Virus record (IMG/VR): IMGVR_UViG_3300020438_000040
Coordinates: 1-58,868 of that record
DNA length: 58,868 nucleotides
Direction: 5' to 3' (one strand)
Source: a virus
This document shows positions 3,866 to 45,543 of this stretch, in pieces. The notes beneath the pieces are model-generated. The model was not told the DNA's origin, did no database searches, and was given only the letters and a program-made list of their open reading frames with translations. The translations under genes and the position numbers were made by a program. Position 1 is the first letter of the stretch; every line of letters begins with the position of its first letter.

Positions 3866-3873
3866 ACTAATTA
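3866..3873 (+). promoter_or_regulatory. Candidate late promoter motif ACTAATTA
   Basis: ACTAATTA is 22 nt upstream of the tape measure ATG and just downstream of a terminator, where a new promoter would be expected. Assigned by its resemblance to the other CTANTTA sites. Confidence 0.42.
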
Positions 3874-3895
3874 ATCTTGAAGAGAGGATTTTTGT

Positions 3896-6361: not shown

Positions 6362-6364
6362 TAA

Positions 6365-7896: not shown

Positions 7897-8240
7897 GCAG
7901 AAACAAGAACAGAAAAACTAAGTCAATAAGTAAATCTCAATATTCTGAGTTGCTTAAAAGCAGAGGTTTGACGTCTGCTGAGATACTTACGGATCCCTTT
8001 ATTGGCTATCCCCCACAAGATGAAAGAAGGAAGATGACCTACGAAGAGCATTACTGGTCTACTGGAGACAATTACTTTAAATTGGCTACCAAATATTATG
8101 GTGATCGCAAAGATTGGTGGGTAATTGCTCGGTTTAATGGAAAGCCTACCGACGCAGATGTTGCGATTGGTGATCGTCTAGTTATACCTTTTCCTTTAGA
8201 TATTGCTAAGGATTACATGGGGTACTTCAATGACTACTAA
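7893..8240 (+). CDS. LysM-like baseplate wedge protein (gp53-like)
   Basis: The 115-residue protein has a short basic N-terminus and a C-terminal LysM-like segment, roughly residues 50-110: a Trp-rich start (YWSTGDNYFKLATKYYGD), WWVIARFNG, then GDRLVIPFP. Baseplate proteins of the T4 gp53 type carry such a domain and join wedges or contact the hub. Its position after the tube-like pair and before a large hub-like gene fits. It overlaps both neighbours (4 nt upstream, 11 nt downstream). A peptidoglycan-binding role is possible for LysM but is not needed for the wedge role. Confidence 0.7.
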   Translation: MSRNKNRKTKSISKSQYSELLKSRGLTSAEILTDPFIGYPPQDERRKMTYEEHYWSTGDNYFKLATKYYGDRKDWWVIARFNGKPTDADVAIGDRLVIPFPLDIAKDYMGYFNDY

Positions 8241-10767
8241 AATAAAGTGGAGCAAGGCTGTTGAGTTTAGTCGGGATTGTATATCTGGATTGCCTTGCCC
8301 AGACCTTGCGGAGGATCAATTCAAAGAAATAATTGAAAAAAACCAAAAGGGTGTTGATGAAGGGCAATTGAAGCAAGCTTTCTTTTTTAGAAGAATGGAT
8401 ATATTTACGGACCTGAATACATTGGTAGGTTCTGAGTCCTTGATGCCTAATACATCTTATGGAAACCACCAAATGGTTCAAACTGGAGACCTCAGTAATG
8501 ATGGTGAGGCCTTTCAAAATGCAGATGTTATAGATTTTTTTAATTATAGAAAAAATGAGAATCTAGGTCACCTGTCGGTATTTGAACACATATCTAATCC
8601 TGATCCAACTCGAGTGATTGGTCGAAAGAGGTTTTACTCACGGAGCGGTTGGCCAACGTCTTCGAAAGACTCTTGGAAACTTATGAGTAATAATTTTAGA
8701 ATATCCAAGGTAATAAAAAAAGAAGAATTTGATAATACCACCTCGGTGGGAAAAAAGTTTACATCCAAAAAATCAAGTATTGCTTTTCCCAAAAGCGTTA
8801 GTGAGTTCGGAATGGGCACTATAATATCCTTCACGGGAATAGACATTTCTTTTGAAGGAACGTATCAGGAGACAGCAAGAAGTGATGTACAAGTTAAAAT
8901 CAGAGCAACACTGAATAATTTTGATTTGTTGGAAAACTATTATGATTCCGACGGAGAATATATAGACTCTACCAGTGTTGATTTAGATAAGCACCTGAGG
9001 TTTTTAGATTTGTTTACACCGGCTGAATTGGATGAAGATAACCAAGGGATAATGCTGGAAGTATACACAACACATGCAAACGAAAACGGTGATGACCTAG
9101 AGACCCATAGAAAACCGCAGACAGATGCTAAATATTTATCATATCACAATTATTTAAAACTTGATCTTTATATTGTTGACCATACTTTAAGTTTCGATGA
9201 AGTAAACAATAAGGTAAATATAGAGATAGAGTACAGGGCTGGAGCAGATATGGGTGTCGTGAATAATCGCGTTGGTCCTAAGAACATATTATATGGGGAT
9301 GTTGAGCGAGAGAAGTTTCGCAAGATATTGATAAACTCACAATTCCTACTAGAGAAGAGATGCACTGAAAAATCTTCTGAGGAAATAGATAAAATAGCAG
9401 ACTTACGAAAAAAAGAATTTAAAGAACATATCGATTTGCGGATCCCTATGGTGAATCTTAACTTTGAAGACCCACTGAAGCCATATATAAAAAATTATAA
9501 TTTATCAGTAGGTGGGGCATCTGGTATATCCAAACTTGATTATAACTCATTTGCATACACAACCGGTTTTGATGATGATGTTATTTTTATGGGATTACAT
9601 GAGGCAAATGTATCAAGCGAGATGAAAACTTACCACTTTGTTACTCTTAGGAATTTGTTGGCTGATCTTATTCCCCAAGACCTACTTGATCACTACAAAG
9701 TTATGTTACCATTTGTTCCGATGAAAGTAAGGGGTTTCGGAGTTGATTCTTTTGGGTTCTATCTAGGGGATTTACCCATAGCAGTTGAGCTATTTGAGGA
9801 TTGGTTTAATAAAAAATATATTATTGAAAATGTATCTTACTTAGATGTTAAAACACTTGTTAAAGACATTATAATGAATTATGTTAACCCTTGCTTAAGA
9901 TTAAGTTCTTGGGATAATAACCAAAAAGTAGAACTTGCCACTTCCTCTTTTAATATGTTTGGAGAGTTTACTTATGATAATTCAACCGCAGACCCGCCGA
10001 CAATGAACAGCCCAAGAGTGAACGAAAAACTGTGGGGTAATGCTTCAGAAAGGGGTGCTGTAAAATTTGTACCAAAGATTCCAACCAATGATGCAGCAAA
10101 AGTTGTATCACAAGGAGACTTTGAAGACAAACATGGAAAAGACTATGTATTTATCAATGTCTATGTTGTTGAATCAGAAGACTTTTTAGCTGGTAAACTT
10201 CAGGGCGCAAATAGTATTAAAGATAAATTAGATATAATTTCTAATTATCGCACAGTTATTGAAGCAAAATCTCCTTATGGGCCATTCAAGTCACTAAAAC
10301 TATCAGCAAACAACACAGATTACCTTCGTGAGGTGAGACTAGAACAACAAGGCAAAACAGACATATCACAGTTAGGGAACGTTTATGATGCAACAGTAAC
10401 GACTTACCCGAACTGTCCAGATTTTAGATTCTTTCCCGGTGACTATGTGTATCTTTACGTACCAGATCTTGGCTTTGCTTCAGATACAGACAATCTAGCG
10501 TACAAACTAGGAATCGGTGGTCACCAAATAATAACTAATGTTGTCCATAAAATAGAATTAGAAGGTAGTGCAAAGATGTCTACCGAAGTCACTATGAGAT
10601 ATTGGAACAGTGGGGTCAAGAATCAGCACCAAAACAACCCATCGGCCTCTGGTTGTGTTGTTCGGTCATCTCCGGGTGATCCCGGGTACAGCCCTGTCTC
10701 AATTGAGCGCGACACTAGCGATGAATATGTAGACCCAAATGATAGCGGGTGGGGAGAACCTAAATAA
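8230..10767 (+). CDS. Large baseplate hub-like structural protein
   Basis: I place the start at the ATG at 8230 (845 residues) rather than the ATG at 8203, because 8203 lies deeper inside the upstream gene and the residues between look non-native. The C-terminal quarter has a strand pattern seen in tail hub proteins: FFPGDYVYLYVPD..., then GIGGHQIITNVVHKIELEGSAKMSTEVTMRYW, ending in a Ser/Pro/Gly-rich tail. Position after the LysM gene and size support a baseplate hub or spike-bearing role. No lysozyme motif was recognised. The overlap of its start with the LysM gene indicates coupled translation. Confidence 0.5.
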   Translation: MTTKIKWSKAVEFSRDCISGLPCPDLAEDQFKEIIEKNQKGVDEGQLKQAFFFRRMDIFTDLNTLVGSESLMPNTSYGNHQMVQTGDLSNDGEAFQNADVIDFFNYRKNENLGHLSVFEHISNPDPTRVIGRKRFYSRSGWPTSSKDSWKLMSNNFRISKVIKKEEFDNTTSVGKKFTSKKSSIAFPKSVSEFGMGTIISFTGIDISFEGTYQETARSDVQVKIRATLNNFDLLENYYDSDGEYIDSTSVDLDKHLRFLDLFTPAELDEDNQGIMLEVYTTHANENGDDLETHRKPQTDAKYLSYHNYLKLDLYIVDHTLSFDEVNNKVNIEIEYRAGADMGVVNNRVGPKNILYGDVEREKFRKILINSQFLLEKRCTEKSSEEIDKIADLRKKEFKEHIDLRIPMVNLNFEDPLKPYIKNYNLSVGGASGISKLDYNSFAYTTGFDDDVIFMGLHEANVSSEMKTYHFVTLRNLLADLIPQDLLDHYKVMLPFVPMKVRGFGVDSFGFYLGDLPIAVELFEDWFNKKYIIENVSYLDVKTLVKDIIMNYVNPCLRLSSWDNNQKVELATSSFNMFGEFTYDNSTADPPTMNSPRVNEKLWGNASERGAVKFVPKIPTNDAAKVVSQGDFEDKHGKDYVFINVYVVESEDFLAGKLQGANSIKDKLDIISNYRTVIEAKSPYGPFKSLKLSANNTDYLREVRLEQQGKTDISQLGNVYDATVTTYPNCPDFRFFPGDYVYLYVPDLGFASDTDNLAYKLGIGGHQIITNVVHKIELEGSAKMSTEVTMRYWNSGVKNQHQNNPSASGCVVRSSPGDPGYSPVSIERDTSDEYVDPNDSGWGEPK

Positions 10768-12074
10768 TGAGTACATTTGGAGCAAACAATAATAGTTCTG
10801 CAAGAACAGCATTCGAACAAAAGGTTAAGTTTAACACCGAAGCATATGCTGATGTTGATAACCAAAAAGGTATTGTTGAATTTAATTTCTTTGAGAAGAT
10901 CAGATATGGACACGTTAACACAAAAGGAGTCCCTATCATACCTCGAGAAGAACATATGCAGCCAATCATATACTCTAGTCAGTTTGCAGGAATTATCCTT
11001 GATTGTTGTGTTTATGGTGTTGAACAAATCTTAAAACATTTCCTCGATTGTATGCGGTTCGGCATAATCGAAGAGGATCAAATTACAGAGATAGCACCTA
11101 TTCAAGCATATACGCCCCCCATTCTTGAATATAGAAACGGTATCGTATCAAACTTAGATGCCTTTAACAAGCATATAGTTGATATGAACCTCTTAACAAA
11201 TATAAGCGATTTTGATCAATATGTCAAGAAGTTTCTTGATTATTTTAAAATAAATTATAAACAAATGAGACCCATGACTCTAGCAAAGCACTGCCTATCG
11301 AGGTTTGCGTCTCCTCTCGAAACTGGTTTAGCTGTAAAGTTTTTCCCAACAGTCTTTGATGTTGATCAAATTAAATATGATACTCTGATATCAAGTCCCA
11401 ACTTTCAAAAGTATGTTGATGCTTGTAGGAACTTTGGATTTTCTGTTGTTAAGCATACTCCGAACATGGTTATATTTGATATCAATTCTGCTGCAAATAT
11501 AATCCCTCTTCAGGAGAACAATATTACATCAATAGAGAACCTGTTCGAGACTAGGTATACTAACTCTATGGATTCTTCTATCTCCACCCTCAAGGCCCAA
11601 ATGATTAAAGGATATAATCGACTTGTCGACATAAAACAAGTTACTTTGGTACCAAAACACTGTCGAGAGGGATTAGTATATAGAAAGCATGTATTACCAA
11701 AGTTTGATATTAATAATATAAATAATAATAATTATATAAATAATAATATTAATAATATATATATAACCTTTAGATATTATGAAGAACAGGAAAGAATGTC
11801 TATTGGTAAATTCAATCAGATTAAGAATAATGTAAAATTCTTTCAAAAAAGATTTGACAACGATTCAGTTCTAGGTTATATTAATGATGAGTTCCAAAAT
11901 CTTTATAAAGATGAAGAAAACAGTTACAATGATTTCATTCGAAGAGAAAGACAAAAAGAAATTCAAAAACTCGAAGATGAAACTCAAGCACAACTTACAG
12001 CCACAACGGTAGAGATTGAAGAACCAACAATACAAACCTCTCAGCCACAAGCAACTGATAGGGGAACATACTAG
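10767..12074 (+). CDS. Unknown protein at the end of the tail module, Asn-rich insert
   Basis: The 435-residue protein shows no family I recognise. Residues about 313-332 are almost entirely Asn/Ile/Tyr, coded by an AT-only low-complexity DNA stretch near 11705-11765. The last 60 residues are a Glu/Lys/Gln-rich helix followed by a Thr/Gln-rich tail. The ATG overlaps the stop of the hub-like gene by one base, so it is likely translated with the tail genes and may be a virion or assembly protein. The following polymerase gene starts 8 nt after its stop. Confidence 0.6.
   Translation: MSTFGANNNSSARTAFEQKVKFNTEAYADVDNQKGIVEFNFFEKIRYGHVNTKGVPIIPREEHMQPIIYSSQFAGIILDCCVYGVEQILKHFLDCMRFGIIEEDQITEIAPIQAYTPPILEYRNGIVSNLDAFNKHIVDMNLLTNISDFDQYVKKFLDYFKINYKQMRPMTLAKHCLSRFASPLETGLAVKFFPTVFDVDQIKYDTLISSPNFQKYVDACRNFGFSVVKHTPNMVIFDINSAANIIPLQENNITSIENLFETRYTNSMDSSISTLKAQMIKGYNRLVDIKQVTLVPKHCREGLVYRKHVLPKFDINNINNNNYINNNINNIYITFRYYEEQERMSIGKFNQIKNNVKFFQKRFDNDSVLGYINDEFQNLYKDEENSYNDFIRRERQKEIQKLEDETQAQLTATTVEIEEPTIQTSQPQATDRGTY
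11705..11765 (+). repeat. AT-only low-complexity stretch
   Basis: Runs of AATAAT and ATATAT, in frame, give an Asn/Ile-rich insert inside the unknown gene at 10767. It looks like expansion by replication slippage. Confidence 0.75.
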
Positions 12075-12082: not shown

Positions 12083-13285
12083 ATGACATTCCAAATTATG
12101 GATGATAAAAAAGATTGCGCAGGAGTTTACGTTGATGGAAAATTTATTTACGACAGAATACCCGACAATATTGATGGTACTTGGGGCTATTCTGATCACC
12201 TTCGAGACCGGCACATTCAATATGCTTACTTATGGACATTGGGATCTAGGATATCCGATATTTGCCCAGAACATCTTAAAGCCAGATGGGAATCCAGAGA
12301 AAAGAAAATAAGATCTCACTTCAAGTCGTTACAAACAGTCAAAATAAACTTCGACGATGTGTGCTTTTTTGATTTAATCCCAGACAAGCAATTAGAGCAT
12401 TATTTCCAGACTAAGAACGAAATATGCGATTGGGTTTTTGCTAACGTTGACAAGCCAACACACTACGGCCTACTGCATGACGGTTATATAACAATACAAA
12501 ATCTTCAAAAACGTGCCCTACATATCAATAAACACAAATTATTTCGATATTCCCAAAAGGATATGAAAGCAAGGAGTTTATGGAACTGGATAAAGGGTCG
12601 ACAAGAAGTATACGTTAAATACAACCTCTTTGGTAGCGTTACAGGACGCTTAACAACGACGGAGGGGTCATTCCCCATAATGAATCTTAAAACGGAATTA
12701 AAGGACATTGTCGAGCCCAAATGGGACTGTTTTTTGGAACTTGATTTTAATGCCGCCGAGATAAGAACAATGATTTCCCTAATGGGACAAAAACAACCAC
12801 AGGAGGATATTCATGAGTGGAACATCAAAAATATATTCAAACAAGACATCACAAGAGCAGAGGCAAAACAAAAGTTTTTTGCTTGGCTCTATAACTCGGA
12901 AAACAAAACTATCGATTCTGAATTCTATAGCAAAAGCGATCTCGTCGAAAAGTTTTATTGCGAAGAACAAAAAGAAATACGAACCCCTTTTGGTAGAAGG
13001 ACAGCTTGTGATAGATTTCACGCGCTCAACTACTTGTTGCAATCTGCTTCCTCCGATAACTGTCTTGACCGCGTCAACAAAATTGAAAAATTCTTAACAG
13101 GGAGAAAAAGTTATGTCGCCTTTACTATACACGATTGTGTTATTATCGACCTTCATGGGGACGATAGGGATCTCATTCCACATATCAGACAAATTTTCGA
13201 AGATACTAAACTTGGGCAGTTCAAATCGTCATGTCATATCGGAAAAAACTTCGGAGACATGCGAGAATTCAAGTGGAAAAATTAA
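12083..13285 (+). CDS. Compact family A DNA polymerase
   Basis: The 400-residue protein has the family A polymerase motifs in order: GSVTGRLTT (motif 1, near residue 184), LDFNAAEIRTM (motif A, near residue 220), R-x3-K-x3-F-x3-Y in RAEAKQKFFAWLY (motif B, with spacing identical to Klenow Arg754/Lys758/Phe762/Tyr766), and IHD (motif C). It is much shorter than T7 or E. coli Pol I, and I see no 3'-5' exonuclease motifs, so proofreading would need another protein. A DnaE-type polymerase is encoded at 42088. GGAGG is 4 nt upstream of the ATG, the standard spacing of this genome. Confidence 0.9.
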   Translation: MTFQIMDDKKDCAGVYVDGKFIYDRIPDNIDGTWGYSDHLRDRHIQYAYLWTLGSRISDICPEHLKARWESREKKIRSHFKSLQTVKINFDDVCFFDLIPDKQLEHYFQTKNEICDWVFANVDKPTHYGLLHDGYITIQNLQKRALHINKHKLFRYSQKDMKARSLWNWIKGRQEVYVKYNLFGSVTGRLTTTEGSFPIMNLKTELKDIVEPKWDCFLELDFNAAEIRTMISLMGQKQPQEDIHEWNIKNIFKQDITRAEAKQKFFAWLYNSENKTIDSEFYSKSDLVEKFYCEEQKEIRTPFGRRTACDRFHALNYLLQSASSDNCLDRVNKIEKFLTGRKSYVAFTIHDCVIIDLHGDDRDLIPHIRQIFEDTKLGQFKSSCHIGKNFGDMREFKWKN

Positions 13286-16003: not shown

Positions 16004-17203
16004 ATGATATTTTATCATAACATAAGGACCTTCCTTTCACAGGAACGTCAATTAATTAAAGTAGACCGTGCTTTCCAACGAAAAAGTTGCTGGACACTTG
16101 CGCAAAAAAGGAGATATATTATTTCCTTCTTAAAAAATAGGACTCCTTACCCAGTTGTCCTTGCGGACATTAGAACAGGTCTTATGCGCTCCAAAGACAT
16201 TCAAAGTTCCGAAGATATCAGAAAGTACGAAGAACTTACTAATGAGGGTAAATCCCGTGTAAGCCTAGACGGGCAGAATCGAATCAAGACTCTTGAAGAA
16301 TTCTACAACAATGCATGGGGAATTACCGGAGATCTTATGGGCGCTGATGGTGTAGTATATCCTGTAAAAGATGTACTATACAAAGATTTACCAACTCGCT
16401 TAAAAGATGCTTTTGATATGCTTCAGGTTAGCGTATATGTTCAGCAGAACTGTTTGTATTCTGAACTACACACTATCTTTGTTGATATTAATGATGGCGA
16501 AGGATTAAATCCTCAAGAAAAGCGTAATGCTATAATGACTTGGTTCTCAGGACACATTAGGAATTTCGCTGAAACACAAAATCATGAAAAGTTGTTATTA
16601 AGAATATCCGGAATGAAAGAGCAGGATATTAAACGATCTACTGATGCCGAGTGGTATACAAAAGCCTATGTATCTTTAGTTCAGCCTGATAAGCATTACT
16701 TAAATAGGTCTGGTCTCGATGCTTTTTACAAACAGGGTGAAGGTCGCCAACAAGCAAGCATTTCAGACTATAGTCGAGACAAGGTTGATCGCTTTGAGAA
16801 AGTGGTTGAGATGGTATACCGTGCTGTCTTTTCAAAAACCGTGATTGGTACTCCCATAAGTCAAAAGCTTTTCTGGGCTTTATTGATTGCCTCGGCTGAT
16901 GTATACGATACTGGTCAAAGAATTACAGATTATTCAATCCTTTTTGATGCTGTAAAACAGGCCGACTGTTCGTTATGTATTGATTCTAACGATGATTTTG
17001 TAAAGGATTTTAAAACTTGGCAGGGGTTACCTAATCCGTGCCCAAAACAAGAGCCAAAAAAATCCCAGTACTATTTCCACTGGGCTAGTGACGTAAACAA
17101 GCCTACAGTGCGGCAAAAAAGAAAATCTGAACTCTTGAGAGAACTTAAAAATATGAATCTATATCACGATTCTTTCAAAGTTCAATCCCAAGCAGCAAAA
17201 TAA
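16004..17203 (+). CDS. DUF262 (ParB/sulfiredoxin-fold) protein
   Basis: The 399-residue product has the DUF262 signature: AFQRKSCWTLAQKRRYIISFL (residues 23-43), then SLDGQNRIKTLEEF (near residues 86-99), then IFVDINDGEGLNPQEKRNAI (near residues 163-182). DUF262 domains share the ParB/Srx fold and occur in GmrSD-type restriction enzymes and other nucleic-acid systems. No HNH motif (DUF1524 partner) is visible in the C-terminal half. It lies alone between ssDNA-binding protein and UvsX, 150 nt after a terminator. A role in DNA processing or in countering host defence is possible. The ribosome site is weak. Confidence 0.72.
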   Translation: MIFYHNIRTFLSQERQLIKVDRAFQRKSCWTLAQKRRYIISFLKNRTPYPVVLADIRTGLMRSKDIQSSEDIRKYEELTNEGKSRVSLDGQNRIKTLEEFYNNAWGITGDLMGADGVVYPVKDVLYKDLPTRLKDAFDMLQVSVYVQQNCLYSELHTIFVDINDGEGLNPQEKRNAIMTWFSGHIRNFAETQNHEKLLLRISGMKEQDIKRSTDAEWYTKAYVSLVQPDKHYLNRSGLDAFYKQGEGRQQASISDYSRDKVDRFEKVVEMVYRAVFSKTVIGTPISQKLFWALLIASADVYDTGQRITDYSILFDAVKQADCSLCIDSNDDFVKDFKTWQGLPNPCPKQEPKKSQYYFHWASDVNKPTVRQKRKSELLRELKNMNLYHDSFKVQSQAAK

Positions 17204-23057: not shown

Positions 23058-23086
23058 TTGACAAATACCTTTTAATATGTTATAAT
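23058..23086 (+). promoter_or_regulatory. Sigma70-like promoter for the GroES gene
   Basis: TTGACA, 17 nt ending in GT, TATAAT (perfect -10). Confidence 0.88.
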
Positions 23087-23134
23087 ATGTAATATACTAA
23101 AGGGTATTTTTTTATATTAATTATTGGAGGAATG

Positions 23135-23407
23135 ATGTACCTTGAGCCACTTAATAGACACCTTCTCGTGCTCCCAAGCTTCGAGAAACAAGAGGAAACA
23201 AAGATAGTTCTCCCCGAGAGCTACAAGAAACCAGAATCACCATACATTATTTGTGATGTCCTCGGAATATCATCGGATTGTAAGATTGAGGTAGATATAG
23301 GCAACAGAATAGTCGTCGAAAGAAGTATGATACAAGAGTTAAAAGCAGCCGGGGAAACTAATTATCTAGTGTTAGAAAACTATGTGTATGGGAGACTAGA
23401 AAAATGA
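23135..23407 (+). CDS. groES: GroES-like co-chaperonin
   Basis: About 90 residues with the GroES pattern: YLEPLNRHLLVLPS (strand 1), a mobile-loop region with KIVLPESYK (compare xxIVLP of GroES), a valine/isoleucine-rich middle, and a C-terminal NYLVLENYVYGRLE closing strand. T4 gp31 and similar proteins replace GroES in capsid folding. A full GroEL is encoded at 53067. The second of two consecutive ATGs is chosen because it keeps the 4 nt GGAGG-to-ATG spacing seen across this genome. Sequence drift in the central part keeps some doubt. Confidence 0.75.
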   Translation: MYLEPLNRHLLVLPSFEKQEETKIVLPESYKKPESPYIICDVLGISSDCKIEVDIGNRIVVERSMIQELKAAGETNYLVLENYVYGRLEK

Positions 23408-25595: not shown

Positions 25596-26393
25596 GTGGA
25601 AGAATTAAATTTATATTATAGTGACTTAAACATTGGAAGGACATTAACTTGCTTACTGCATTCTTTTAAGACTGAGACTCCCTGTATATTAACACAACCA
25701 TCTCCTCCATTTAAGTTTGATGAACACATATCACAATATGATTTCGCTTTCCTAGGTATCGAAGATTCAAACCCCCAACAGGCTTGGGATAGACTGTGTT
25801 TTTTGTTAAGTATGTCCGGACTACTGTTGTTCCCGAATAATGTAACAAACGCTCGTATGAACGATAAAATAGTCGAAGTGGTCACAAACAATAACCAGAA
25901 AATCATTATTGAGTGCGAGAATATTAATGTGTTTGATAACGATGAAACAGGTTGGTATTATGTATATGATTATTTTGATTGGCGGTCTGGTTCTATTCAC
26001 ACCTGTGATCACATCAATGATCACGATGATAATTTTATAAAAAAAATTATTTTTTATTCTTCCGAGCGAGATAGGGTCAACAATAATGTTAAGGATTTGG
26101 TTGGAGTCTCTTACCTAAGGGACGATGAACTTGAAGATCTTGAAGTGTCTCCGGTTTATTCGAGACTAAAAATGCTGCAAATGATTAAAAAAGCTGGTAT
26201 AAAAGGTAGGACGACTGGATATAATTCAAGAGGTATCGCAACTCACACTTCACCCATAATAGAATTTAATAAAAGAATAACCAAACCAGATTTTAAGCCC
26301 ACTATTTCACTGAAAGAAGTTTATGATATGCCTACACAACAAGGATACACATGGAAGTTACTAGAGAAGATAATACAAAGTACTTCCACTTAG
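25596..26393 (+). CDS. Unknown protein
   Basis: A 265-residue protein starting at GTG 25596, 7 nt after the previous stop. No motif recognised; it has acidic and hydrophobic blocks (TLTCLLHSFKTETPCIL, LLFPNNVTNARM) and a basic Arg/Ser-rich part near residue 200. Its end overlaps the next gene by 43 nt. It lies between thyX-linked genes and a nucleotidyltransferase-like gene. Confidence 0.6.
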   Translation: MEELNLYYSDLNIGRTLTCLLHSFKTETPCILTQPSPPFKFDEHISQYDFAFLGIEDSNPQQAWDRLCFLLSMSGLLLFPNNVTNARMNDKIVEVVTNNNQKIIIECENINVFDNDETGWYYVYDYFDWRSGSIHTCDHINDHDDNFIKKIIFYSSERDRVNNNVKDLVGVSYLRDDELEDLEVSPVYSRLKMLQMIKKAGIKGRTTGYNSRGIATHTSPIIEFNKRITKPDFKPTISLKEVYDMPTQQGYTWKLLEKIIQSTST

Positions 26394-27271
26394 CAGGAAT
26401 AGTTCCGGTAGCGGGACAACCTTTGGATTTTGATCAGATATGGCCGGATTGTTTAACCCCAATCGCTCCTGACTTTAGCTTGGTAGAGGCCGCAGTCGCC
26501 GAGTGTGCTTGGGCTGGCTGTGATACAATCTGGATAATCTGTAATGATGATATAGGGCCTTTGATAAAAAAGAAAATCGGTGACTTTGTCGGTGATCCGG
26601 TGTGGTCTTACCGCAAATTCGATCCTCGACCTAACGATAGTAAACGTCAAATTCCTGTATATTACGTTCCAATACACCCAAAAGATCGAGATAAACGTGA
26701 TTGTCTTGCTTGGAGTGTATTGCACGGTTCATTAACTGCTTTCAAAATATCAGACGAGCTATCAAGGTGGTTGATACCAAATAAATATTACGTTAGCTTC
26801 CCTTATGGTTATTTTCCCGCTTGGCAGCTTCGAGAGCATAGGAAAACAATTTCATCCTCTAAGAACGTGTATCTCACTTCCAACGGGAAGTCAATGAAGG
26901 ATAATCTTTATTCTTCCTTCACGTTTGGAAAAGATGAATTTATAGAGTTTCGTAAAATAATACGTTCTGGGACAGGACGATGGAAGCCGGGAGTTGATTA
27001 TAAAGAATACGAAGCATTGCCCATCGAAGAAAGGTGGTCTGCGAGGTTTTTTGAGCTTGAAAAAGTGTTTGCCCCGTTCAACACAGATGAAGCCCATGAG
27101 ATAAAGGTAGATAATTACTGGAATATCAGCTCTTGGCAAGAATACAAGCTCTTCATGGCCGGTAATATCGACAATAACATAAAAAGACCAACAAAGACAA
27201 TTCTTATAAATCAAAGATACAAACCAATTGCAGAAGCCTATTTAAAGGACGATGAGCAAGAAGAACCTTAG
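26351..27271 (+). CDS. Nucleotidyltransferase-like protein
   Basis: The 306-residue protein starts HLAGIVPVAGQPLDFDQIWPDCLTPIAPDFSLVEAAVAECAWAGCDTIWIIC, which follows the order of sugar-1-phosphate nucleotidyltransferases (AGGxGTRL..P...PK...PI...E.ai.e...aG...i.iv), but the GxGTR loop is replaced by PVAGQP and the Lys of PK is not obvious. It may be a diverged enzyme or a binding protein of this fold. Possible targets are sugar nucleotides or DNA base modification precursors. Long overlap with the previous gene. Confidence 0.55.
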   Translation: MEVTREDNTKYFHLAGIVPVAGQPLDFDQIWPDCLTPIAPDFSLVEAAVAECAWAGCDTIWIICNDDIGPLIKKKIGDFVGDPVWSYRKFDPRPNDSKRQIPVYYVPIHPKDRDKRDCLAWSVLHGSLTAFKISDELSRWLIPNKYYVSFPYGYFPAWQLREHRKTISSSKNVYLTSNGKSMKDNLYSSFTFGKDEFIEFRKIIRSGTGRWKPGVDYKEYEALPIEERWSARFFELEKVFAPFNTDEAHEIKVDNYWNISSWQEYKLFMAGNIDNNIKRPTKTILINQRYKPIAEAYLKDDEQEEP

Positions 27272-27860
27272 ATTCAAAAGACTTTTAAGCAAGTACAGAT
27301 CAGTATCTTCAGAGTTACAGTCTACATGCGAGATTGTTGACGAAATGCAAGAGTATTTTACTGAGTGCGTAAATGATTATTGCGATAGAAGCAATATAGA
27401 CCTAGAGGATCTAAAGAAAGATAAGGAAGGAAGAATAGAACAACTGGTCGAGGCATCTAACACCACCGTTAAGGGTGTTGAGGAAAAAATTCAAGAACAG
27501 GAATATGACTCGAAAAGTTTATTCAGACAAATCGCTAAGAAGTTCCACCCAGATGCACTTGATCCCGAAGACCCTGATAAGGATGAAAAAGAAGAGATAT
27601 TTAAAATAGCAATGAGAGCGATAGATGAATGTAATTGGGGTACCCTTTTTGATATAGCTGCAAAACATGATCTAGAATTTAAGGACTATGACTCAATCAT
27701 CTCCTCACTAAAATTAGATATAGAAAGAGAAGAGGCGATCTTGAAAAAGAAGCAAAATACTTGGTCTTGGTTACTATTTAATTGCGAAGACGATCAGGCT
27801 TGCAAAGACCAAACGGTACTTGGTTTTCTTAAACAGGTATATTCTTACGAAAATACTTGA
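27252..27860 (+). CDS. J-domain protein with N-terminal coiled coil
   Basis: The 202-residue protein has a Lys/Glu-rich helical N-terminal half and, near residues 86-130, LFRQIAKKFHPDALDPEDPDKDEKEEIFKIAMRAIDE, including the HPD tripeptide (99-101) and flanking helices of a J domain. J-domain proteins stimulate DnaK ATPase and deliver clients; phage members may redirect host DnaK. No phage DnaK was seen in the window. The ATG is inside the previous gene's end, and the stop codon TGA overlaps the -35 box of the next promoter. Confidence 0.75.
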   Translation: MSKKNLRFKRLLSKYRSVSSELQSTCEIVDEMQEYFTECVNDYCDRSNIDLEDLKKDKEGRIEQLVEASNTTVKGVEEKIQEQEYDSKSLFRQIAKKFHPDALDPEDPDKDEKEEIFKIAMRAIDECNWGTLFDIAAKHDLEFKDYDSIISSLKLDIEREEAILKKKQNTWSWLLFNCEDDQACKDQTVLGFLKQVYSYENT

Positions 27861-27885
27861 CAAGATATTCTTGATAGGTTATAAT
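27857..27885 (+). promoter_or_regulatory. Sigma70-like promoter upstream of the tmRNA region
   Basis: TTGACA, 17 nt, TATAAT. The J-domain stop codon TGA (27858-27860) forms part of the -35 box. It probably drives the small membrane gene and tmRNA. Confidence 0.88.
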
Positions 27886-27902
27886 ATATAAAAGAGGTGA
27901 GT

Positions 27903-28103
27903 ATGTTAGAGAATATTAATTTTATACTTTGGGTTGCTATTGTAATGGGGCTTGTTCTCACTTCATATGCAGCATCCACCAAGCAACTCGTAGAGGATAC
28001 CAAACAGGAGTTCGGGCTATATCCATCGCATCAACTATGGAACGACAAAGAGAGTCAAGAAGATATTAAAAGATATTATGGGATAGATACAGGATTCGAA
28101 TGA
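27903..28103 (+). CDS. Small single-pass membrane protein
   Basis: Sixty-six residues: a hydrophobic N-terminal helix (FILWVAIVMGLVLTSYAA) then a polar tail. ATG 27903 is chosen over GTG 27897 because the GAGGTG ribosome site lies just upstream of it. Function unknown; it is co-transcribed with tmRNA by position. Confidence 0.65.
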   Translation: MLENINFILWVAIVMGLVLTSYAASTKQLVEDTKQEFGLYPSHQLWNDKESQEDIKRYYGIDTGFE

Positions 28104-28155
28104 TCGAGAGCAGGAGTAGACCACAAGGTAGGCGAGAGCCTTAAAATCTTATTAT

Positions 28156-28488
28156 GGGCTCGCAATGGCTTCGACGGGCTAGAATCAAGGGGAGAGTGCA
28201 TGCAGGCGTGAATCAGCCTTAATCGTTCAAATTTTTATAAACGCAAACAATAATTTGTTTTTCGACGAAGTCGCTTTAGCGGCTTAATCGGGTGGTCGCC
28301 CTGAACCATCTATCCAAGACGGGCAAAAACAACAGGATAGTTGCAAAAATCACAACTCTTTCGGCCACGGACTATAGAGTATAACATGCAGTGGATACCT
28401 CGCTAGGAGGGAAATAACTAGACAAGCATGTGAATGACTCAAACTAAGACTAGCGCGGACAGGGGTTCGATTCCCCTCGAGTCCACCA
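28156..28488 (+). ncRNA. ssrA: Transfer-messenger RNA (tmRNA)
   Basis: The 5' end GGGCTCG (28156-28162) pairs with CGAGTCC (28479-28484 region) and ends in an encoded CCA at 28486-28488. A G-U pair at position 3 of the acceptor stem fits alanyl-tRNA synthetase recognition. A T arm (GGTTCGATTCC) is present, and CTTCGACGGG near the 5' end is the conserved tmRNA block. The tag reading frame begins at GCA 28243 and reads ANNNLFFDEVALAA, stop at 28285-28287, ending in the ALAA degron of ssrA tags. Phage tmRNAs are rare; this one lies after a membrane gene under a strong promoter. Confidence 0.95.
28243..28287 (+). other. tmRNA tag-peptide reading frame
   Basis: Resume codon GCA and thirteen further codons give a 14-residue tag with the ClpXP-type ending ALAA, then TAA. 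The middle (NNNLFFDEV) is more hydrophobic than the E. coli tag. Confidence 0.9.
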
Positions 28489-28510: not shown

Positions 28511-29059
28511 ATGATGATAAAAAAAATATCAATAGGGCTAGCTGCTCTTGTGTTGTCCAGTATACCAGCCACTGCTGGGCCGTGGCAATCACCAACACAA
28601 ACAAAGCAGTCCTCGAAAGAACCGCCGACACTTGAGTGGAGCCACCGAAAAGGATTGCGCTTTGGATATAGTTATATAAACAAAGGAACAGATAGCGGAA
28701 AACTAAAAAACCCTAGTATGTTCACGATGGGCTTTGAAGCTCAACAGACCATGGAAGGTGGCGATTGGCTTGATCTCCTATTCATCCAGAACATTACCGT
28801 TGGTGGATTGGAGCAAAGTCTTTTAATACCTTCTGTGAATGGGCTGGTAGGATTTGAAATTAACAAAAGACTACAACTTGGTGTTGGAGCCAATGCTACT
28901 TTAGCAGACCCATCTAATCAAGGGAACTATCTTCACTTAGTAACAGCCGCTGGCTGGACACAGCCGGCAGGAGTATTCAGTGTGCCCGTGCATGTGGTTT
29001 TCATACCGGATGTAAACGACTATTGGAGGCTGGCTGCTACCACTGGTATAAATTGGTAG
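28511..29059 (+). CDS. Exported beta-rich protein, possible outer membrane barrel
   Basis: The 182-residue protein has a signal peptide (KKISIGLAALVLSSIPATAG, cleavage near residue 23) and a body of alternating strands (RFGYSYINKG, LFIQNITVGG, GLVGFEINKRLQLGVGA) ending in W, as many outer membrane barrels do. It could change the host surface, for example to block other phages. Alternative start ATG 28514 gives nearly the same protein. A strong terminator follows. Barrel assignment is inference. Confidence 0.6.
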   Translation: MMIKKISIGLAALVLSSIPATAGPWQSPTQTKQSSKEPPTLEWSHRKGLRFGYSYINKGTDSGKLKNPSMFTMGFEAQQTMEGGDWLDLLFIQNITVGGLEQSLLIPSVNGLVGFEINKRLQLGVGANATLADPSNQGNYLHLVTAAGWTQPAGVFSVPVHVVFIPDVNDYWRLAATTGINW

Positions 29060-29083: not shown

Positions 29084-29115
29084 AACCCGACATATCATTG
29101 TCGGGTTATTTTTTT
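29084..29115 (+). terminator. Rho-independent terminator
   Basis: AACCCGACA (29084-29092) pairs with TGTCGGGTT (29099-29107), followed by a T-rich run. Confidence 0.88.
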
Positions 29116-29150: not shown

Positions 29151-29576
29151 ATGGCCAACATTTTATTTATTGACGATTCACCTGAGAGATATAACGTAGC
29201 GTTCAGTATATTACAGGCAACACAAGATAACATGAATATCTATTTGTCCTCTAATGTACGAAGTACCATCCGCTTAATGTGTGATGTTGAATTTGATTTG
29301 GTCGTTTTAGATGTATTCATTCCGATTGGCGAAGGAGCAGAGGACACTCTTGGAAATCGAGCGAAGATGTACGAAGGCGAATACCAGCACCTCGGGGGAC
29401 TAGAGTTAATCGATTTCCTTAATAAAATGGAAGATAAACCAAAGGTACTAATGCACACAGCATGTTTTGATTATGACATCATATCAATGTTCTCAGAAGT
29501 AGTGGATGATAGAATCCCAAAACCAGCATCGATCGATGTATTTATAAAAGCCGTTATTGGAGCCTTAAATTTGTAA
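29151..29576 (+). CDS. Orphan response-regulator receiver domain
   Basis: The 141-residue protein is one receiver (REC) domain: acidic pair in FIDDS (residues 6-10), a phosphoacceptor-type Asp in LVVLDVF near residue 50, a Thr switch position in MHTA and the conserved Lys in PKPA near residue 122. An insert of about 20 residues follows the phosphoacceptor strand. There is no output domain and no kinase in the window, so it may act as a decoy or phosphate sink for host two-component kinases. CheY-like single-domain function is the alternative. No convincing ribosome site was seen directly upstream. Confidence 0.8.
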   Translation: MANILFIDDSPERYNVAFSILQATQDNMNIYLSSNVRSTIRLMCDVEFDLVVLDVFIPIGEGAEDTLGNRAKMYEGEYQHLGGLELIDFLNKMEDKPKVLMHTACFDYDIISMFSEVVDDRIPKPASIDVFIKAVIGALNL

Positions 29577-29600: not shown

Positions 29601-29676
29601 GGGGGTATAGCTCAGTTGGGAGAGCGTCTGCCTTGCACGCAGAAGGTCGTGAGTTCGATCCTCGCTACCTCCACCA
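29601..29676 (+). tRNA. tRNA-Ala (anticodon UGC)
   Basis: A 76-base cloverleaf: acceptor GGGGGTA/TACCTCC, D-arm AGCTCAGTTGGGAGAGC, anticodon stem TCTGC/GCAGA with loop CTTGCAC (anticodon TGC), T-arm GTTCGATCC, encoded CCA. The G3-U70 pair, the main alanine identity element, is present. tmRNA is also charged with alanine, so both phage RNAs use host alanyl-tRNA synthetase. Confidence 0.97.
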
Positions 29677-32549: not shown

Positions 32550-32600
32550 ATCATTAAATAGCTAAAATATAAAAGCCTCCTTCGGGAGGTTTTTTTATTA
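32544..32600 (+). repeat. Direct repeat (copy 1): gene end and terminator
   Basis: About 57 bases, from TTCTAAATCATT through the T run, are identical to 33690-33746. The duplicated block includes stop codon and terminator. Confidence 0.85.
32572..32597 (+). terminator. Terminator after second fibre gene
   Basis: CCTCC-TTCG-GGAGG UUCG-type hairpin followed by seven T; the same sequence recurs at 33717. Confidence 0.9.
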
Positions 32601-33695: not shown

Positions 33696-33746
33696 ATCAT
33701 TAAATAGCTAAAATATAAAAGCCTCCTTCGGGAGGTTTTTTTATTT
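33690..33746 (+). repeat. Direct repeat (copy 2): gene end and terminator
   Basis: Copy of 32544-32600. It is followed immediately by a TTGACA promoter. Confidence 0.85.
33717..33743 (+). terminator. Terminator after third fibre gene
   Basis: Same CCTCC-TTCG-GGAGG hairpin and T run as at 32572. Confidence 0.9.
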
Positions 33747-33773
33747 GACAAGCACAGTAAAGCGTGTTATATT
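33745..33773 (+). promoter_or_regulatory. Sigma70-like promoter for 33800 and the glutamine synthetase unit
   Basis: TTGACA, 17 nt ending in GT, TATATT, placed directly after the terminator T run. Confidence 0.87.
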
Positions 33774-34861: not shown

Positions 34862-35881
34862 ATGAACAAAAAAATTCTAGAATATGTATGGTTGGATGGC
34901 TACAAAACATCTAATCTTCGAAGTAAAATAAAAGTTATAAATCACAATAGTGGTGATGAATTAACTTTGTCTGATGTCCCTGAGTGGAACTACGACGGCT
35001 CTAGCACAAAACAAGCGCCCGGAAGCAGTTCTGAATGTGTCCTAAGACCAATAAGACTGTACAAAAATGAATCTGATAAAACAAAACATATGGTCTTATG
35101 TGAAGTTTTCAATCCAGACGGCACTCCTCACGAGTCAAACCAAAGAGCCGACCTGAGAGATACTCTCACTAACGGAGCAGATTTAAAATTCTGGTGGGGT
35201 TTCGAGCAGGAGTACTTTATTACAAAAGGCTATAGTCCACTAGGTTTCCCAAACGGTGGGTATCCAAAACCACAGGGTCTATATTATTGCGGCGTTGGAG
35301 GAAATCAAGTAGTAGGTCGAGAAATGGTCAATGATCACATGATCGATTGTTTATGTTATGGAATCGATATTACTGGAACAAACGCAGAAGTTGCCGTGGG
35401 GCAGTGGGAGTATCAATGTTTCAACGAGGACACTCTTAAAGCTTGTGATGACCTGTGGATCAGCAGATACCTTCTATATAAAAAAGCAGAATCCTTCGGT
35501 TGGGATATAGATATAACACCAAAACCAGTTACTGGTGATTGGAATGGCTCCGGCTGCCATACGAACTTTAGTACTGAGGAAATGAGAACCACTGGTGGCT
35601 TTGAGTATATAAAAGAACTGATGTCCAGATTTTTGAAAAACCATGACAGCCATATCAAGGGCTATGGAGAGGACAATGATCGTAGATTAACTGGAGACCA
35701 CGAAACTCAACATATCGGTACTTTCTCTTGGGGCGTTGGAGACAGAGGAGCCTCGATTCGGGTTCCCACAGCAATGGAAGAAAATAATTGGGTTGGTTAT
35801 ATCGAGGACAGAAGACCTGCAAGCAATTGTGATCCTTATAAAGTAGCTAATTTGATCGTAAGCACCACATCCGAGACATAA
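34862..35881 (+). CDS. Glutamine synthetase, type II (GSII-like)
   Basis: The 339-residue enzyme follows GSII order: EWNYDGSSTKQAPGSSSE (residues 41-58), LCEVFNPDGTPHESNQR, FEQEYF (metal-binding Glu region, near 115), GIDITGTNAEVAVGQWEYQ, NGSGCHTNFSTEEM (near 228), HETQHIGTFSWGVGDRGASIRVP and EDRRPASNCDPY near the end. It makes glutamine from glutamate, ammonia and ATP. Length matches GSII (about 350), not bacterial GSI (about 470). Phage copies are uncommon; it could raise glutamine for nucleotide synthesis in nitrogen-limited hosts or shift nitrogen sensing. The clpS gene follows after one base. Confidence 0.93.
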   Translation: MNKKILEYVWLDGYKTSNLRSKIKVINHNSGDELTLSDVPEWNYDGSSTKQAPGSSSECVLRPIRLYKNESDKTKHMVLCEVFNPDGTPHESNQRADLRDTLTNGADLKFWWGFEQEYFITKGYSPLGFPNGGYPKPQGLYYCGVGGNQVVGREMVNDHMIDCLCYGIDITGTNAEVAVGQWEYQCFNEDTLKACDDLWISRYLLYKKAESFGWDIDITPKPVTGDWNGSGCHTNFSTEEMRTTGGFEYIKELMSRFLKNHDSHIKGYGEDNDRRLTGDHETQHIGTFSWGVGDRGASIRVPTAMEENNWVGYIEDRRPASNCDPYKVANLIVSTTSET

Positions 35882-35882: not shown

Positions 35883-36185
35883 ATGCCTAAAAAACAAAAG
35901 GACATACTTGTAAAAGACAAGCAAAGAATTGGAAGACCAAAAAGATATAAGGTTGTTTTGTATAATGATGATTATACTCCGATGAACTTGGTCACTTCTA
36001 TATTAATGGAAGTATTTAATAAAGGAAACCAAGAAGCGTATTCCATAATGATGAGTGTTCACAAGAGAGGCCGAGGAGTTGCAGGTGTGTATTCAAGGCA
36101 GATTGCAGATACTAAAATATCTGTCGCAAAAAATATCGCTAGAGAAAATGGCTCACCTCTTCACTGTGAAGCAGAACCAGAGTAG
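35883..36185 (+). CDS. clpS: ClpS adaptor (N-degron recognition)
   Basis: The 100-residue protein matches ClpS throughout: RYKVVLYNDDYTPMNLV (the NDD pocket), IMMSVHKRGRGVAGVYSRQIADTK (His of the pocket and the Clp-binding face), then SPLHCEAEPE. ClpS delivers N-degron substrates to ClpA/ClpC for degradation by ClpP. The short N-terminal extension of about 18 residues is kept. It begins 1 nt after glutamine synthetase. A ClpP-like gene is encoded at 49918; no ClpA or ClpX gene is in the window, so a host unfoldase would be needed. Confidence 0.93.
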   Translation: MPKKQKDILVKDKQRIGRPKRYKVVLYNDDYTPMNLVTSILMEVFNKGNQEAYSIMMSVHKRGRGVAGVYSRQIADTKISVAKNIARENGSPLHCEAEPE

Positions 36186-42087: not shown

Positions 42088-45000
42088 ATGAACAAAATTG
42101 ACTTTGTTGGGCTGCACGCTCATTCTGGGGTTGGATCCCCTTTCGATGGATTTGGATATCCACAAGACCACATGGACTACGCTTTCGAGAATGGAAGTAG
42201 AGCCCTTGCATTAACAGATCATGGTAACATGAATGGTCTGGCTTACCAAGTACTTCACGCTAAACGCATGAAAAAAGCAGGAAAAGACTTTAAACCCATC
42301 TTTGGGGTTGAAGCATACTTTATCGAGTCTGTCGCTGACTGGAAGATCAAACTCGAAGAACATCGCGCAGACAAAGTTAAGTCTAAAAACATCGACAACG
42401 CTCGCTCCGGAACAACCGTTGAGAACGAAGCAGAGTCTAAGTCTGCCTCTAAATCAGAACTAAATCGCAAGAGGCACATTGTTCTACTTGCTATGAACCA
42501 GACTGGCTTGAACAACATCTTTAAGTTGGTATCGGCTTCTTATCACGGCGACAACTTCTATCGGAAGCCGCGTATTGACTTTGATTTGCTACAGAAGCAT
42601 AATGAGGGTATCATCGCCGCATCCGCATGTCTTGGTGGTATTTATGCCGGTTGTTACTGGGAAAACCGCGAAGAAGGTTCCGAGTCTGTGCTGGAGTGTA
42701 TGAGAGATATGACTCGCAATATGCTGGGCATCTTTGGTGATCGATGGTATGGTGAGTTACAATGGAATGCAATTCCAGAACAACATGAATTAAACAACTA
42801 TGTTATCCAGATGCACAAAGAATTCGGTATCCCTTTGATATCAACTTGTGATTCTCATTACCCAACCCCTGACGCTTGGAATGATAGAGAACTATATAAG
42901 AAAATAGGCTGGCTCGGTAAAGGTAAGCCAGAGTGGATGTCTGATGAACTACCTGATAGTGTTGATGAGATCGGTTACGAATTGTACCCAAAGAACGGCG
43001 AACAAATGTGGGCCGATTATAAAAGGTATTGTGTTGATTTACCTTCCAACATTCAGTATGATGATGATATTGTCCGTCAATCTTTGTTGGAGACGGTCCA
43101 CATTGCTTTTGAAAGGGTTGAGGACTTTCTCCCTGATAACACTGTGCGTTTGCCTGATTTTGTCGTACCTGCTGGCCATCACCCTGCAGAATACTTGGCT
43201 CAATTATCCTTCGAGGGCTTATTTAAAGTTTTGGCATCGAATTCTATCGAACGAGGGTCGACCAATTGGGTGGAATACACGTCACGCCTCAAGCATGAAT
43301 TGGAAGTCATATCAGACCGAGGATTCTCAAAATATTTCTTGACTATGAAGTCAATTGTGGATAAAACAAATGAAGTACAACTCGCCGGACCCGGAAGAGG
43401 ATCAGCAGCAGGCTCGCTGGTCGCTTATGCACTGGGCATTACACAAGTGGATCCTATTAAGTATGGCCTCCTTTTTTCTCGTTTCCTCAGAGCGGACGCC
43501 ACGGATTATCCTGATATTGATTACGATGTGTCTGATCCTATGGTACTCAAAGAAATACTTATTGACGAATGGGGCTCCAATACTGTAGTTCCAATCTCTA
43601 ACTTCAATACATTACAATTGAAGTCTTTGATTAAAGATATCTCAAAGTTCTATGATATCCCATTCACCGAAGTTAACAAGGTTACAAACACTATGCTTAA
43701 GGAAGCAACTCCTCTAGCTAAGAAGAAGCACGGTATTCGTGCTGGTGTTTACGCTCCTACCTTTGAAGAGGTCTGTGAGTTTTCTGAGACTCTACAAAAG
43801 TTCTTTATGCAACACCCAAAAGTGAAGTCTCACGTAGAAGGTCTTATGGGGCAAGTACGCTCTACATCTCGTCATGCCGGCGGTGTGGTAATTGGAGCAG
43901 ATCTAGATAAGTATATGCCTCTTATTGCCTCCAAAGGCGTAAGACAGACTCCTTGGTCTGAAGGACAGAACGTTCGGCAACTCGAGCCAATGGGTTTCAT
44001 TAAGTTCGATATTCTCGGTCTTGCGACTCTTCGTATGATGGAGGAAGCTATCGAGCGAATTCTTCAAAATCATCATGGCGTTGAGAATCCAACGTTTGAA
44101 GATATCAAGAAGTATTATGATGAAAATCTTCATCCGGATGTAATTAATTTGGATGATCAAGAAGTTTATAAGAATATATTCCAATCCGGCAAATGGATGG
44201 GTATCTTCCAATTCACGGAGAAAGGTGCGCAGAATCTTGCAAAGAGGGCGCAACCGAAGTCGATTATTGATATCTCTGCGATTACTTCTATTTATCGTCC
44301 CGGCCCTTTGTCTGCTGGTGTGGACAAATCGTATGTTAAGGCTGTTAGAGACCCTCTGAGTATAAAGTATGAAAACGAAATCGTCGAAGAACTCACAAGA
44401 GAAACAAGAGGATTCCTTATATTTCAAGAGCAGATCGCTCTTCTTGCGAACCGGCTTGGCAAAGGGATTAGCCTTGATGATGCTAATTTATTACGCAAAC
44501 TGTTAACAAAGAAAGGTCTCGATGCTTCAAAGCAAGCAAAGAAAGAAGAGATTATGACCAAGTTTGTCGCTGGTTGTATCGAGAAGAAGATATCTCGAGA
44601 CACAGCAATGGATATGTGGCAGAAGTTTGAATACTTCTCTGGCTATGGTTTTAACAAGTCTCACGCTGTTGCCTACTCAATCATATCTTATCAGACCGCT
44701 TGGTTGGCTACATACTACAATGCTGAATGGGCTTGTGCGTTCTTGGACAAAGAACCGGAGTCTCGTAAAGAAGCAGCAATTAATATCGCTAAGTCTTGGG
44801 GATATAACATCAAGCCCCTAAATATCAACACATCTGGCCGTAAATGGTCTGCTATTGAAGGCAGCACCCTCGTTGCCCCTCTAACAACAATCAAAGGTCT
44901 TGGCGATGCAGCCATTGATGAGATCCTCGAGAAGCGTCCATTTACGTCCGTAGAGCATCTTCTGTTTGACGGTGGGGTGGTAGCAAGGAAACTTAACAAG

Positions 45001-45543
45001 AAGTCCTTAGATGCCCTTTGTAGAGCCTCTGCAATGAATGATTTGATTGATGATAGGTTCTATGGGGACAAACATTTCTGGTCTGCTGTTGTTGTTGATA
45101 AACCAAAGAACAAAAAGAAGCTAAACGAGAATGTTGAGACATACAAGCAAGAAGGTTCTTTCTCTACAGCAGAGAGAATCCAGAACACCCAGACTCTTAC
45201 CGGCATCTATCCGATAAGTATGGTAATTACTGAACGTGCTGAGAAGATCATTGAACAGTGGTGCTTGCCGCCAATATCCGAATATGATGCTGACCTTGGC
45301 GCCTCTTGGTGTATTCCAACCAGAATTACAACTAAAAAATCAAAGAACGGTAAGTGGTTTCACACAATTGATGTAATTGATTCAAACTCTGTATCAACTA
45401 AGATTCGCTGCTGGGGCATCGACCCGGCAAAAGACATTATTTATCTGAACAAGCCTTATGTCTTGAAGCAACCAAAGTACAATGAGACTTGGGGATTCTC
45501 GACATACGGGAGAGTAGACAAAAAGTGGATGTTGATTGCTTGA
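42088..45543 (+). CDS. dnaE: DNA polymerase III alpha subunit (DnaE-like)
   Basis: The 1151-residue protein has an N-terminal PHP domain (FVGLHAHSGVGSPFDG, then LTDHGNMNG), the polymerase block GPGRGSAAGSLVAYALGI (near residue 435), the catalytic Asp pair in YPDIDYD (near 474), the third catalytic Asp in KFDILGLATL (near 638), and FNKSHAVAYS near 854. A C-terminal OB-like region follows (TKKSKNGKWFHTIDVID). It is a C-family replicative polymerase, close to full length. It coexists with the family A polymerase at 12083. Its stop codon TGA is shared with the -35 box of the next promoter. Confidence 0.95.
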   Translation: MNKIDFVGLHAHSGVGSPFDGFGYPQDHMDYAFENGSRALALTDHGNMNGLAYQVLHAKRMKKAGKDFKPIFGVEAYFIESVADWKIKLEEHRADKVKSKNIDNARSGTTVENEAESKSASKSELNRKRHIVLLAMNQTGLNNIFKLVSASYHGDNFYRKPRIDFDLLQKHNEGIIAASACLGGIYAGCYWENREEGSESVLECMRDMTRNMLGIFGDRWYGELQWNAIPEQHELNNYVIQMHKEFGIPLISTCDSHYPTPDAWNDRELYKKIGWLGKGKPEWMSDELPDSVDEIGYELYPKNGEQMWADYKRYCVDLPSNIQYDDDIVRQSLLETVHIAFERVEDFLPDNTVRLPDFVVPAGHHPAEYLAQLSFEGLFKVLASNSIERGSTNWVEYTSRLKHELEVISDRGFSKYFLTMKSIVDKTNEVQLAGPGRGSAAGSLVAYALGITQVDPIKYGLLFSRFLRADATDYPDIDYDVSDPMVLKEILIDEWGSNTVVPISNFNTLQLKSLIKDISKFYDIPFTEVNKVTNTMLKEATPLAKKKHGIRAGVYAPTFEEVCEFSETLQKFFMQHPKVKSHVEGLMGQVRSTSRHAGGVVIGADLDKYMPLIASKGVRQTPWSEGQNVRQLEPMGFIKFDILGLATLRMMEEAIERILQNHHGVENPTFEDIKKYYDENLHPDVINLDDQEVYKNIFQSGKWMGIFQFTEKGAQNLAKRAQPKSIIDISAITSIYRPGPLSAGVDKSYVKAVRDPLSIKYENEIVEELTRETRGFLIFQEQIALLANRLGKGISLDDANLLRKLLTKKGLDASKQAKKEEIMTKFVAGCIEKKISRDTAMDMWQKFEYFSGYGFNKSHAVAYSIISYQTAWLATYYNAEWACAFLDKEPESRKEAAINIAKSWGYNIKPLNINTSGRKWSAIEGSTLVAPLTTIKGLGDAAIDEILEKRPFTSVEHLLFDGGVVARKLNKKSLDALCRASAMNDLIDDRFYGDKHFWSAVVVDKPKNKKKLNENVETYKQEGSFSTAERIQNTQTLTGIYPISMVITERAEKIIEQWCLPPISEYDADLGASWCIPTRITTKKSKNGKWFHTIDVIDSNSVSTKIRCWGIDPAKDIIYLNKPYVLKQPKYNETWGFSTYGRVDKKWMLIA

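Follow-up and report, generated by a model that had tools for sequence, protein, structure and literature searches.

At positions 28156-28488 on the plus strand the window, by which is meant the whole 58,868-base stretch of viral DNA analysed here (a record without end repeats), was confirmed to carry a real, complete and structurally intact one-piece tmRNA. RNAs of this kind release ribosomes that have become stuck and mark the incomplete protein for destruction. The parts of the gene are as follows, all on the plus strand:

28156-28488, plus: tmRNA (ssrA), one-piece, with encoded CCA (ARAGORN; RF00023, 91.9 bits, E 1.8e-34; covariation in 8 phages)
28156-28162, plus: acceptor stem 5' strand GGGCUCG, pairing with 28478-28484, with G3-U70 (read directly)
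28204-28229, plus: PK1 pseudoknot (helices 5 and 6, 100% of cells paired, compensatory CG/UA)
28243-28287, plus: tag frame ANNNLFFDEVALAA and stop (ARAGORN; in-frame variants in relatives; codon comparison)
28291-28324, plus: PK2 pseudoknot (helices 8 and 9, double changes at three pairs)
28329-28344, plus: PK3 stem, CAAC/GUUG core (helix 10, 90% paired, without a double change; weaker support, for one stem)
28356-28394, plus: probable PK4, CUCU/AGAG with CCAC/GUGG (by eye from two sequences)
28461-28477, plus: T arm (helix 12, four of five pairs doubly changed)
28478-28488, plus: acceptor stem 3' strand CGAGUCC and ACCA (read directly; RF00023; covariation)

A sequence-only reading of this DNA had placed a tmRNA here with paired acceptor ends, CCA and a G-U pair at acceptor position 3, and this was exact to the base, as ARAGORN and RF00023 both return the same ends, CCA, G3-U70 pair and tag, in agreement with direct reading. 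The RF00023 covariance search, which that reading had proposed as a check, aligned end to end with the model (positions 1-374) against a gathering score of 47. The acceptor stem comprises seven pairs including G3-U70 and is followed by the encoded ACCA; of the features expected of a member of this family, the RNA has the tRNA-like domain with its acceptor stem, CCA and T arm, the G3-U70 pair, and a tag frame that opens with a resume codon and closes with a stop. The permuted tmRNA family RF04321 also matched (50.1 bits, 28128-28287) and was rejected as a cross-hit through the shared 5' half, because the upstream piece with T arm and CCA is absent, four bases replace the 59 of the model, and the T arm and CCA lie at the normal 3' end. 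No acceptor 3' piece is found upstream of the D-arm piece.

To determine covariation, the eight closest phage tmRNAs were aligned and compared with a hand-written structure that included the pseudoknots, using 500 shuffles and slid controls. The predicted helices comprise 458 cells, of which 98.9% are paired, and 13 pairs carry double changes (29 double-change cells, covariation score 0.214). None of the 500 shuffles matched the paired percentage, the double changes or the covariation score. The slid controls were 26-43% paired; as the structure was drawn from the same eight sequences, some excess over these controls is expected, and more weight falls on the double changes. Two of the seven acceptor pairs are doubly changed in relatives, and the G3-U70 alanine identity pair is invariant in all eight sequences. 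For the PK4 region, CUCU/AGAG becomes CUCC/GGAG in relative G010, and the other relatives have by eye a differing yet knot-like segment. The minimum-energy fold is unremarkable (z -1.4), as expected because the folding program cannot draw pseudoknots. Pseudoknots, on whose presence in the fold the sequence-only reading had staked its claim, are backed by covariation in the case of PK1 and PK2. It is well supported that the fold, PK1 and PK2 included, has been kept through compensatory changes in eight phages, pointing to an RNA under structural selection.

These changes bear on whether the gene could be a passenger, captured from a host, for example by imprecise excision at an ssrA attachment site, and unused. 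tmRNA genes are common integration sites, capture of this kind has been proposed in other phages (PMC9004378, PMC11590407), and the neighbourhood of the tmRNA is a variable spot. However, the compensatory changes, the invariant G-U pair and an in-frame tag across divergent phages require ongoing selection, no integrase was found among the approximately 50 window proteins scanned, and seven relatives have a dedicated promoter before the tmRNA. We consider an unused passenger very improbable, and the eight-phage covariation largely refutes it. The RNA could also act as a decoy that competes with the host tmRNA, blocking host trans-translation or changing the tag, in the manner proposed for the tRNA-like-only form in phage DS6A. 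A phage tmRNA that consists of the TLD alone has been described, as has a similar molecule with demonstrated inhibition of tmRNA (PMC4131195, PMC11915505), but a decoy needs neither the full tag frame, nor the stop codon, nor the pseudoknots that are all kept under constraint here, and a decoy role is scarcely credible.

The tag frame ending in ALAA was also read correctly from sequence: the resume codon GCA begins at 28243, the last base of the stop TAA is 28287 (read directly), and ARAGORN calls the tag as listed. The same tag is carried by G010 and by a truncated copy in G013, while six sister phages have ANNNLYFEEALAA; further tags among the related records are ANNNAHFDVAQAA, ANNNDSYSQVALAA, ANNSNYSELALAA and ANDDVEIFEDYALAA. 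The tag of G014 is set apart from that of the window by a 3-base deletion and by codon changes that are either synonymous or conservative, with the reading frame kept, and the C-terminal ALAA is unchanged. An unusually hydrophobic tag had been proposed. The middle is indeed more hydrophobic than that of E. coli, with a mean Kyte-Doolittle value for the tag of 0.51 against -0.43. The word unusual holds only in part: in a panel rich in Firmicutes, one of the 47 distinct tags is more hydrophobic still, but the sister tag ANNNLYFEEALAA has a value of -0.09. The LFF stretch lies apart from the residues read by ClpX and ClpA (PMC12493166). The further suggestion that tagged proteins are redirected to another protease receives no direct support from the tag, in which the ALAA end read by ClpX and ClpA is kept.

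Patterns from the tmRNA were also searched in a genome collection. The 3'-end pattern had no match there, a second pattern, from the tag, matched mainly Firmicutes and one WOR-3 genome, and the ANNNL[F/Y]F-type pattern was found in none of 147 WOR-3-phylum genomes and none of 392 genomes from the phylum of a Planctomycetaceae MAG. One WOR-3 genome (G051; L144 2379-2755 and L239) has two tmRNAs, one of which has the tag ANNNANFDVALAA and a 5' half resembling the phage tmRNAs; this phage-like copy may represent a prophage, a donor lineage or a mixed assembly.

T4-type tail sheath, baseplate and gp32-like genes are present in the fragment, which also encodes RecA, a DnaB-type helicase, a DnaE polymerase and ThyX, and an origin from a T4-like phage is well supported. 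The bacterial-type DnaE polymerase (42088-45543) and a short A-family polymerase-like fragment (12083-13285) are unusual for a T4-like phage, and a phage protein at 16004-17203 has a weak match to the N-terminal domain of the GmrSD restriction endonuclease (DUF262-type). A scan with the protein encoded at 26351-27271 gathered 55 related viral loci. The tmRNA locus is conserved and syntenic in relatives, whose divergent tmRNAs are approximately 80-96% identical to that of the window, and a DNA search with the tmRNA among named phages gave no match. A tmRNA above the Rfam cut-off occurs in 12 of the 50 related records searched whole, many of them fragments, so the tmRNA is not demonstrably essential among these phages. 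Nor do the relatives amount to independent samples, and since most records are fragments, absences from them are weak evidence.

The tmRNA is flanked by the following features:

27857-27885, plus: promoter TTGACA-17-TATAAT, 12 of 12 consensus bases, the closest one upstream of the window tmRNA
27897-28103, plus: ORF of 68 aa between promoter and tmRNA (no Pfam or PHROG match)
28511-29059, plus: 182-aa protein starting 22 bases past the tmRNA, with an N-terminal signal-like stretch (no family match)
29084-29107, plus: intrinsic-terminator-like hairpin and T run, where the tmRNA transcription unit probably ends
29601-29676, plus: tRNA-Ala (UGC) (ARAGORN; Rfam)
33745-33773, plus: phage promoter heading the unit 33764-33961-glutamine synthetase-clpS

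Sites matching TTGACA-17-TATATT with at most one mismatch number 20 in the window, compared to 0.74 in shuffles. The window-wide promoter, TTGACA-N17-(G)TTATATTATA, is nearly always on the coding strand and has no site in the tail gene block (1-11,000). As the consensus is host-like and sites are absent from that block, we infer that these promoters act early in infection. The unit containing the window tmRNA would run from the promoter at 27857 through the 27897 ORF, the tmRNA and the 28511 gene to the hairpin at 29084. A response-regulator receiver domain protein (29151-29576), common to G010 and G011, adjoins the tmRNA region. Identical terminator-like hairpins AAAAGCCTCCTTCGGGAGGTTTTT lie at 32571-32594 and 33717-33740, each 3' of one of two related fibre-like genes.

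The arrangement differs between the window and its relatives. In seven of these (G004, G010, G011, G012, G013, G014 and G015) a TTGACA-17-TATATT promoter lies exactly 13 bases 5' of the tmRNA; this tmRNA-proximal promoter of most relatives is missing from the window copy. In G004, G010, G012 and G014 there is no other strong promoter of this type ahead of clpS, which lies 1.0-1.3 kb from the tmRNA across an interval that holds a tRNA or one or two small genes, and scans of G014 and G010 gave no convincing terminator between the two genes. With no intervening promoter in the four and no convincing terminator in the two scanned, tmRNA and clpS appear to be co-transcribed in these four relatives. 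The window, unlike them, has tmRNA and clpS in separate units; compared to most relatives, tail-fibre genes, the response regulator, the tRNA-Ala and the glutamine synthetase lie between the two. The glutamine synthetase (34862-35881, GSII-like by length) adjoins clpS and is absent from the relatives' loci examined.

Five window genes have a predicted role in protein fate:

23132-23407, plus: GroES-like co-chaperonin (PHROG 3188; profile against PDB 2.5e-9; fold match probability 1.0)
27252-27860, plus: protein with J-domain-like HPD segment (HPD invariant in 10 relatives; PDB profile hits)
35883-36185, plus: ClpS adaptor (PF02617, 102.9 bits; PDB ClpS, E 2.4e-19)
49918-50598, plus: ClpP-like serine protease (PF00574, 128 bits; PDB alignment; relatives)
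53067-54635, plus: GroEL (PF00118, 214 bits)

The ClpS protein has the features expected of this adaptor, with the pocket motif NDD(Y/F)TPM, His60 and the N-terminal extension kept among relatives. The extension is poorly conserved across bacterial orthologs (PMC9663308), which makes its conservation here worthy of note, the phages compared being close relatives. ClpS is present in all seven testable genomes with an ANNNL-type tmRNA; G005, whose contig begins just before clpS, also has it. G031 and G035 (about 160 kb), which have a tmRNA but are more distantly related, lack ClpS. The protease retains the Ser and His, but an Asn is aligned with the catalytic Asp in both window and relatives, leaving the triad incomplete, and it is named ClpP-like because the fold family (PF00574) fits. 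A role for it as the prohead protease was considered and rejected, as relatives encode a separate T4-type S77 prohead protease and ClpP would be unneeded for head maturation. The GroES-like protein conforms to Cpn10 in both sequence and fold. All of the top PDB profile matches of the J-domain-like protein are DnaJ (2.6e-5), and a fold search gave no useful match. The promoter of the GroES-like gene lies inside an inverted repeat at 23058-23140 (AAATACCTTT...AAAGGGTATTT, then T's); in relatives the sequence of this repeat differs and its complementarity stays, as with CGCCTCTTAA...TTAAGAGGCG in L012. The arrangement resembles the terminator of the upstream gene with a promoter nested in the loop. 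Neither SmpB nor an unfoldase of ClpX/ClpA type (AAA_2-type) was found in 30 records, several of which are fragments, so any rescue would have to rely on host SmpB and host ClpX or ClpA.

The most probable explanation, with a probability of about 0.72, is that this T4-like phage encodes its own working tmRNA for ribosome rescue with host SmpB. The gene with its structure and tag, the promoter pattern and the co-encoded ClpP-, ClpS-, GroEL- and GroES-like genes are observed in the DNA itself; for expression, timing, charging, use of SmpB, tagging and degradation, we infer the following course. The window tmRNA would be transcribed by read-through from the sigma70-type phage promoter at 27857, and that of most relatives from the promoter 13 bases before its 5' end, probably at an early stage of infection. 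The RNA would then be trimmed, charged with alanine by virtue of G3-U70 and bound by host SmpB. It would enter ribosomes stuck on cut or truncated mRNAs and append ANNNLFFDEVALAA, and the ALAA end, being unchanged, is expected to direct the product to Clp proteolysis by a host unfoldase, ClpX or ClpA, in partnership with the ClpP of the host or perhaps that of the phage. The payoff may be that free ribosomes stay in supply as the RNA of the host is being destroyed. When T4 infects, the SsrA of the host is stable even as its tRNAs undergo degradation, and the authors of that work suggest that ribosomes are thereby kept available (PMC9697503). The Melnitz tmRNA behind an early promoter (PMC9004378) also speaks for this explanation. 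Counting against it are the dependence on a host for SmpB, the missing tmRNA-proximal promoter in the window copy and the presence of a tmRNA in just 12 of the 50 related records. That the tmRNA supports rescue in infection, as had been proposed from sequence, is the best reading of the structural selection, the phage promoters and the host SmpB as the only SmpB in sight.

Redirection of tagged proteins could still come about through the protein-fate genes, because the phage encodes its own ClpP and ClpS, and ClpS diverts ClpAP from ssrA-tagged substrates, whose degradation it inhibits in E. coli and Leptospira (PMC9663308, PMC12493166). It is this inhibition that makes the tmRNA-clpS unit suggestive. 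The tmRNA, ClpS and ClpP might thus work together in triage, ClpS turning host ClpA (or ClpC)-ClpP from ssrA-tagged proteins toward N-degron (host) proteins; phage-tagged products would then go to ClpXP or be spared, and host proteins would be recycled. The occurrence of ClpS with the ANNNL-type tmRNAs, the promoter shared in four relatives, the conserved pocket and N-terminal extension and a phage ClpP other than the prohead protease are all consistent with this. On the other hand, the two genes sit in different units in the window, the distant tmRNA phages have no ClpS, no phage unfoldase was found, the ClpP has Asn for its catalytic Asp, and unrelated genes are often joined in shared early operons. 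Such joint action is unlikely. Its stricter form, in which an early co-transcribed tmRNA-ClpS pair, the phage ClpP and host unfoldases would select the proteins destroyed, shielding tagged products from ClpAP-type proteases as N-degron proteins of the host are recycled, is slightly less likely still.

Ribosome rescue by a phage-encoded tmRNA can be compared to several known systems. With the one-piece tmRNA (RF00023, ssrA) the RNA shares the acceptor and T arm with G3-U70 and CCA, a tag ending in ALAA, and PK1 and PK2; it differs in being phage-encoded and in its shorter PK3/PK4 region and hydrophobic LFF. The T4-like marine phage Melnitz likewise has a complete tmRNA, located immediately downstream of an early promoter (PMC9004378), but its tmRNA is two-piece and permuted and is accompanied by a glutamine riboswitch, whereas here it is one-piece and no riboswitch was matched (Rfam) in the window or five relative loci. 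Huge phages also carry tmRNA within a translation-supporting gene set, and have been reported to carry it with SmpB (PMC7162821), of which none was found in the 30 records here. The genome of the Sinorhizobium phage AP-J-162 contains a tmRNA alongside Clp proteins, DnaJ and GroES; it is approximately 470 kb in size and has ClpX, and the accessible part of the phage's description mentions no tmRNA-clpS unit (PMC11242549). Myxococcus phage Mx1 (OR576727) has a tmRNA (117.7 bits) and a ClpP-like gene, but its tag is VNTNVFGSQMMAAA as called and the tmRNA sits in a tRNA array. The Mx1 tmRNA (L226 1501-1877; 46646-47023) is missing from the annotation table, in which a short CDS overlaps its 3' end. 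The jumbo phages PA5oct, SCTP-2, Atu_ph07 and Phosso encode ClpS as well, but have no tmRNA over the Rfam cut-off, and PA5oct and SCTP-2 have clpX near clpS.

Phage tmRNAs were already listed by 2014 (PMC4131195), and a tmRNA is found in 402 of 18,146 phage genomes in a study that proposes rescue and recycling roles for them (PMC9004378). The tmRNA itself is thus of a known kind; the tmRNA-clpS unit, of which no earlier description was found in the open-access papers searched, is the newer part, and its function is putative. Phages have been proposed to carry a tmRNA for the upkeep of ribosomes, for the recycling of amino acids or for control over the host tag. One early-type promoter serving both a tmRNA and the protease adaptor ClpS, as appears to be the case in four of these phages, would be a concrete link from ribosome rescue to the choice of protease.
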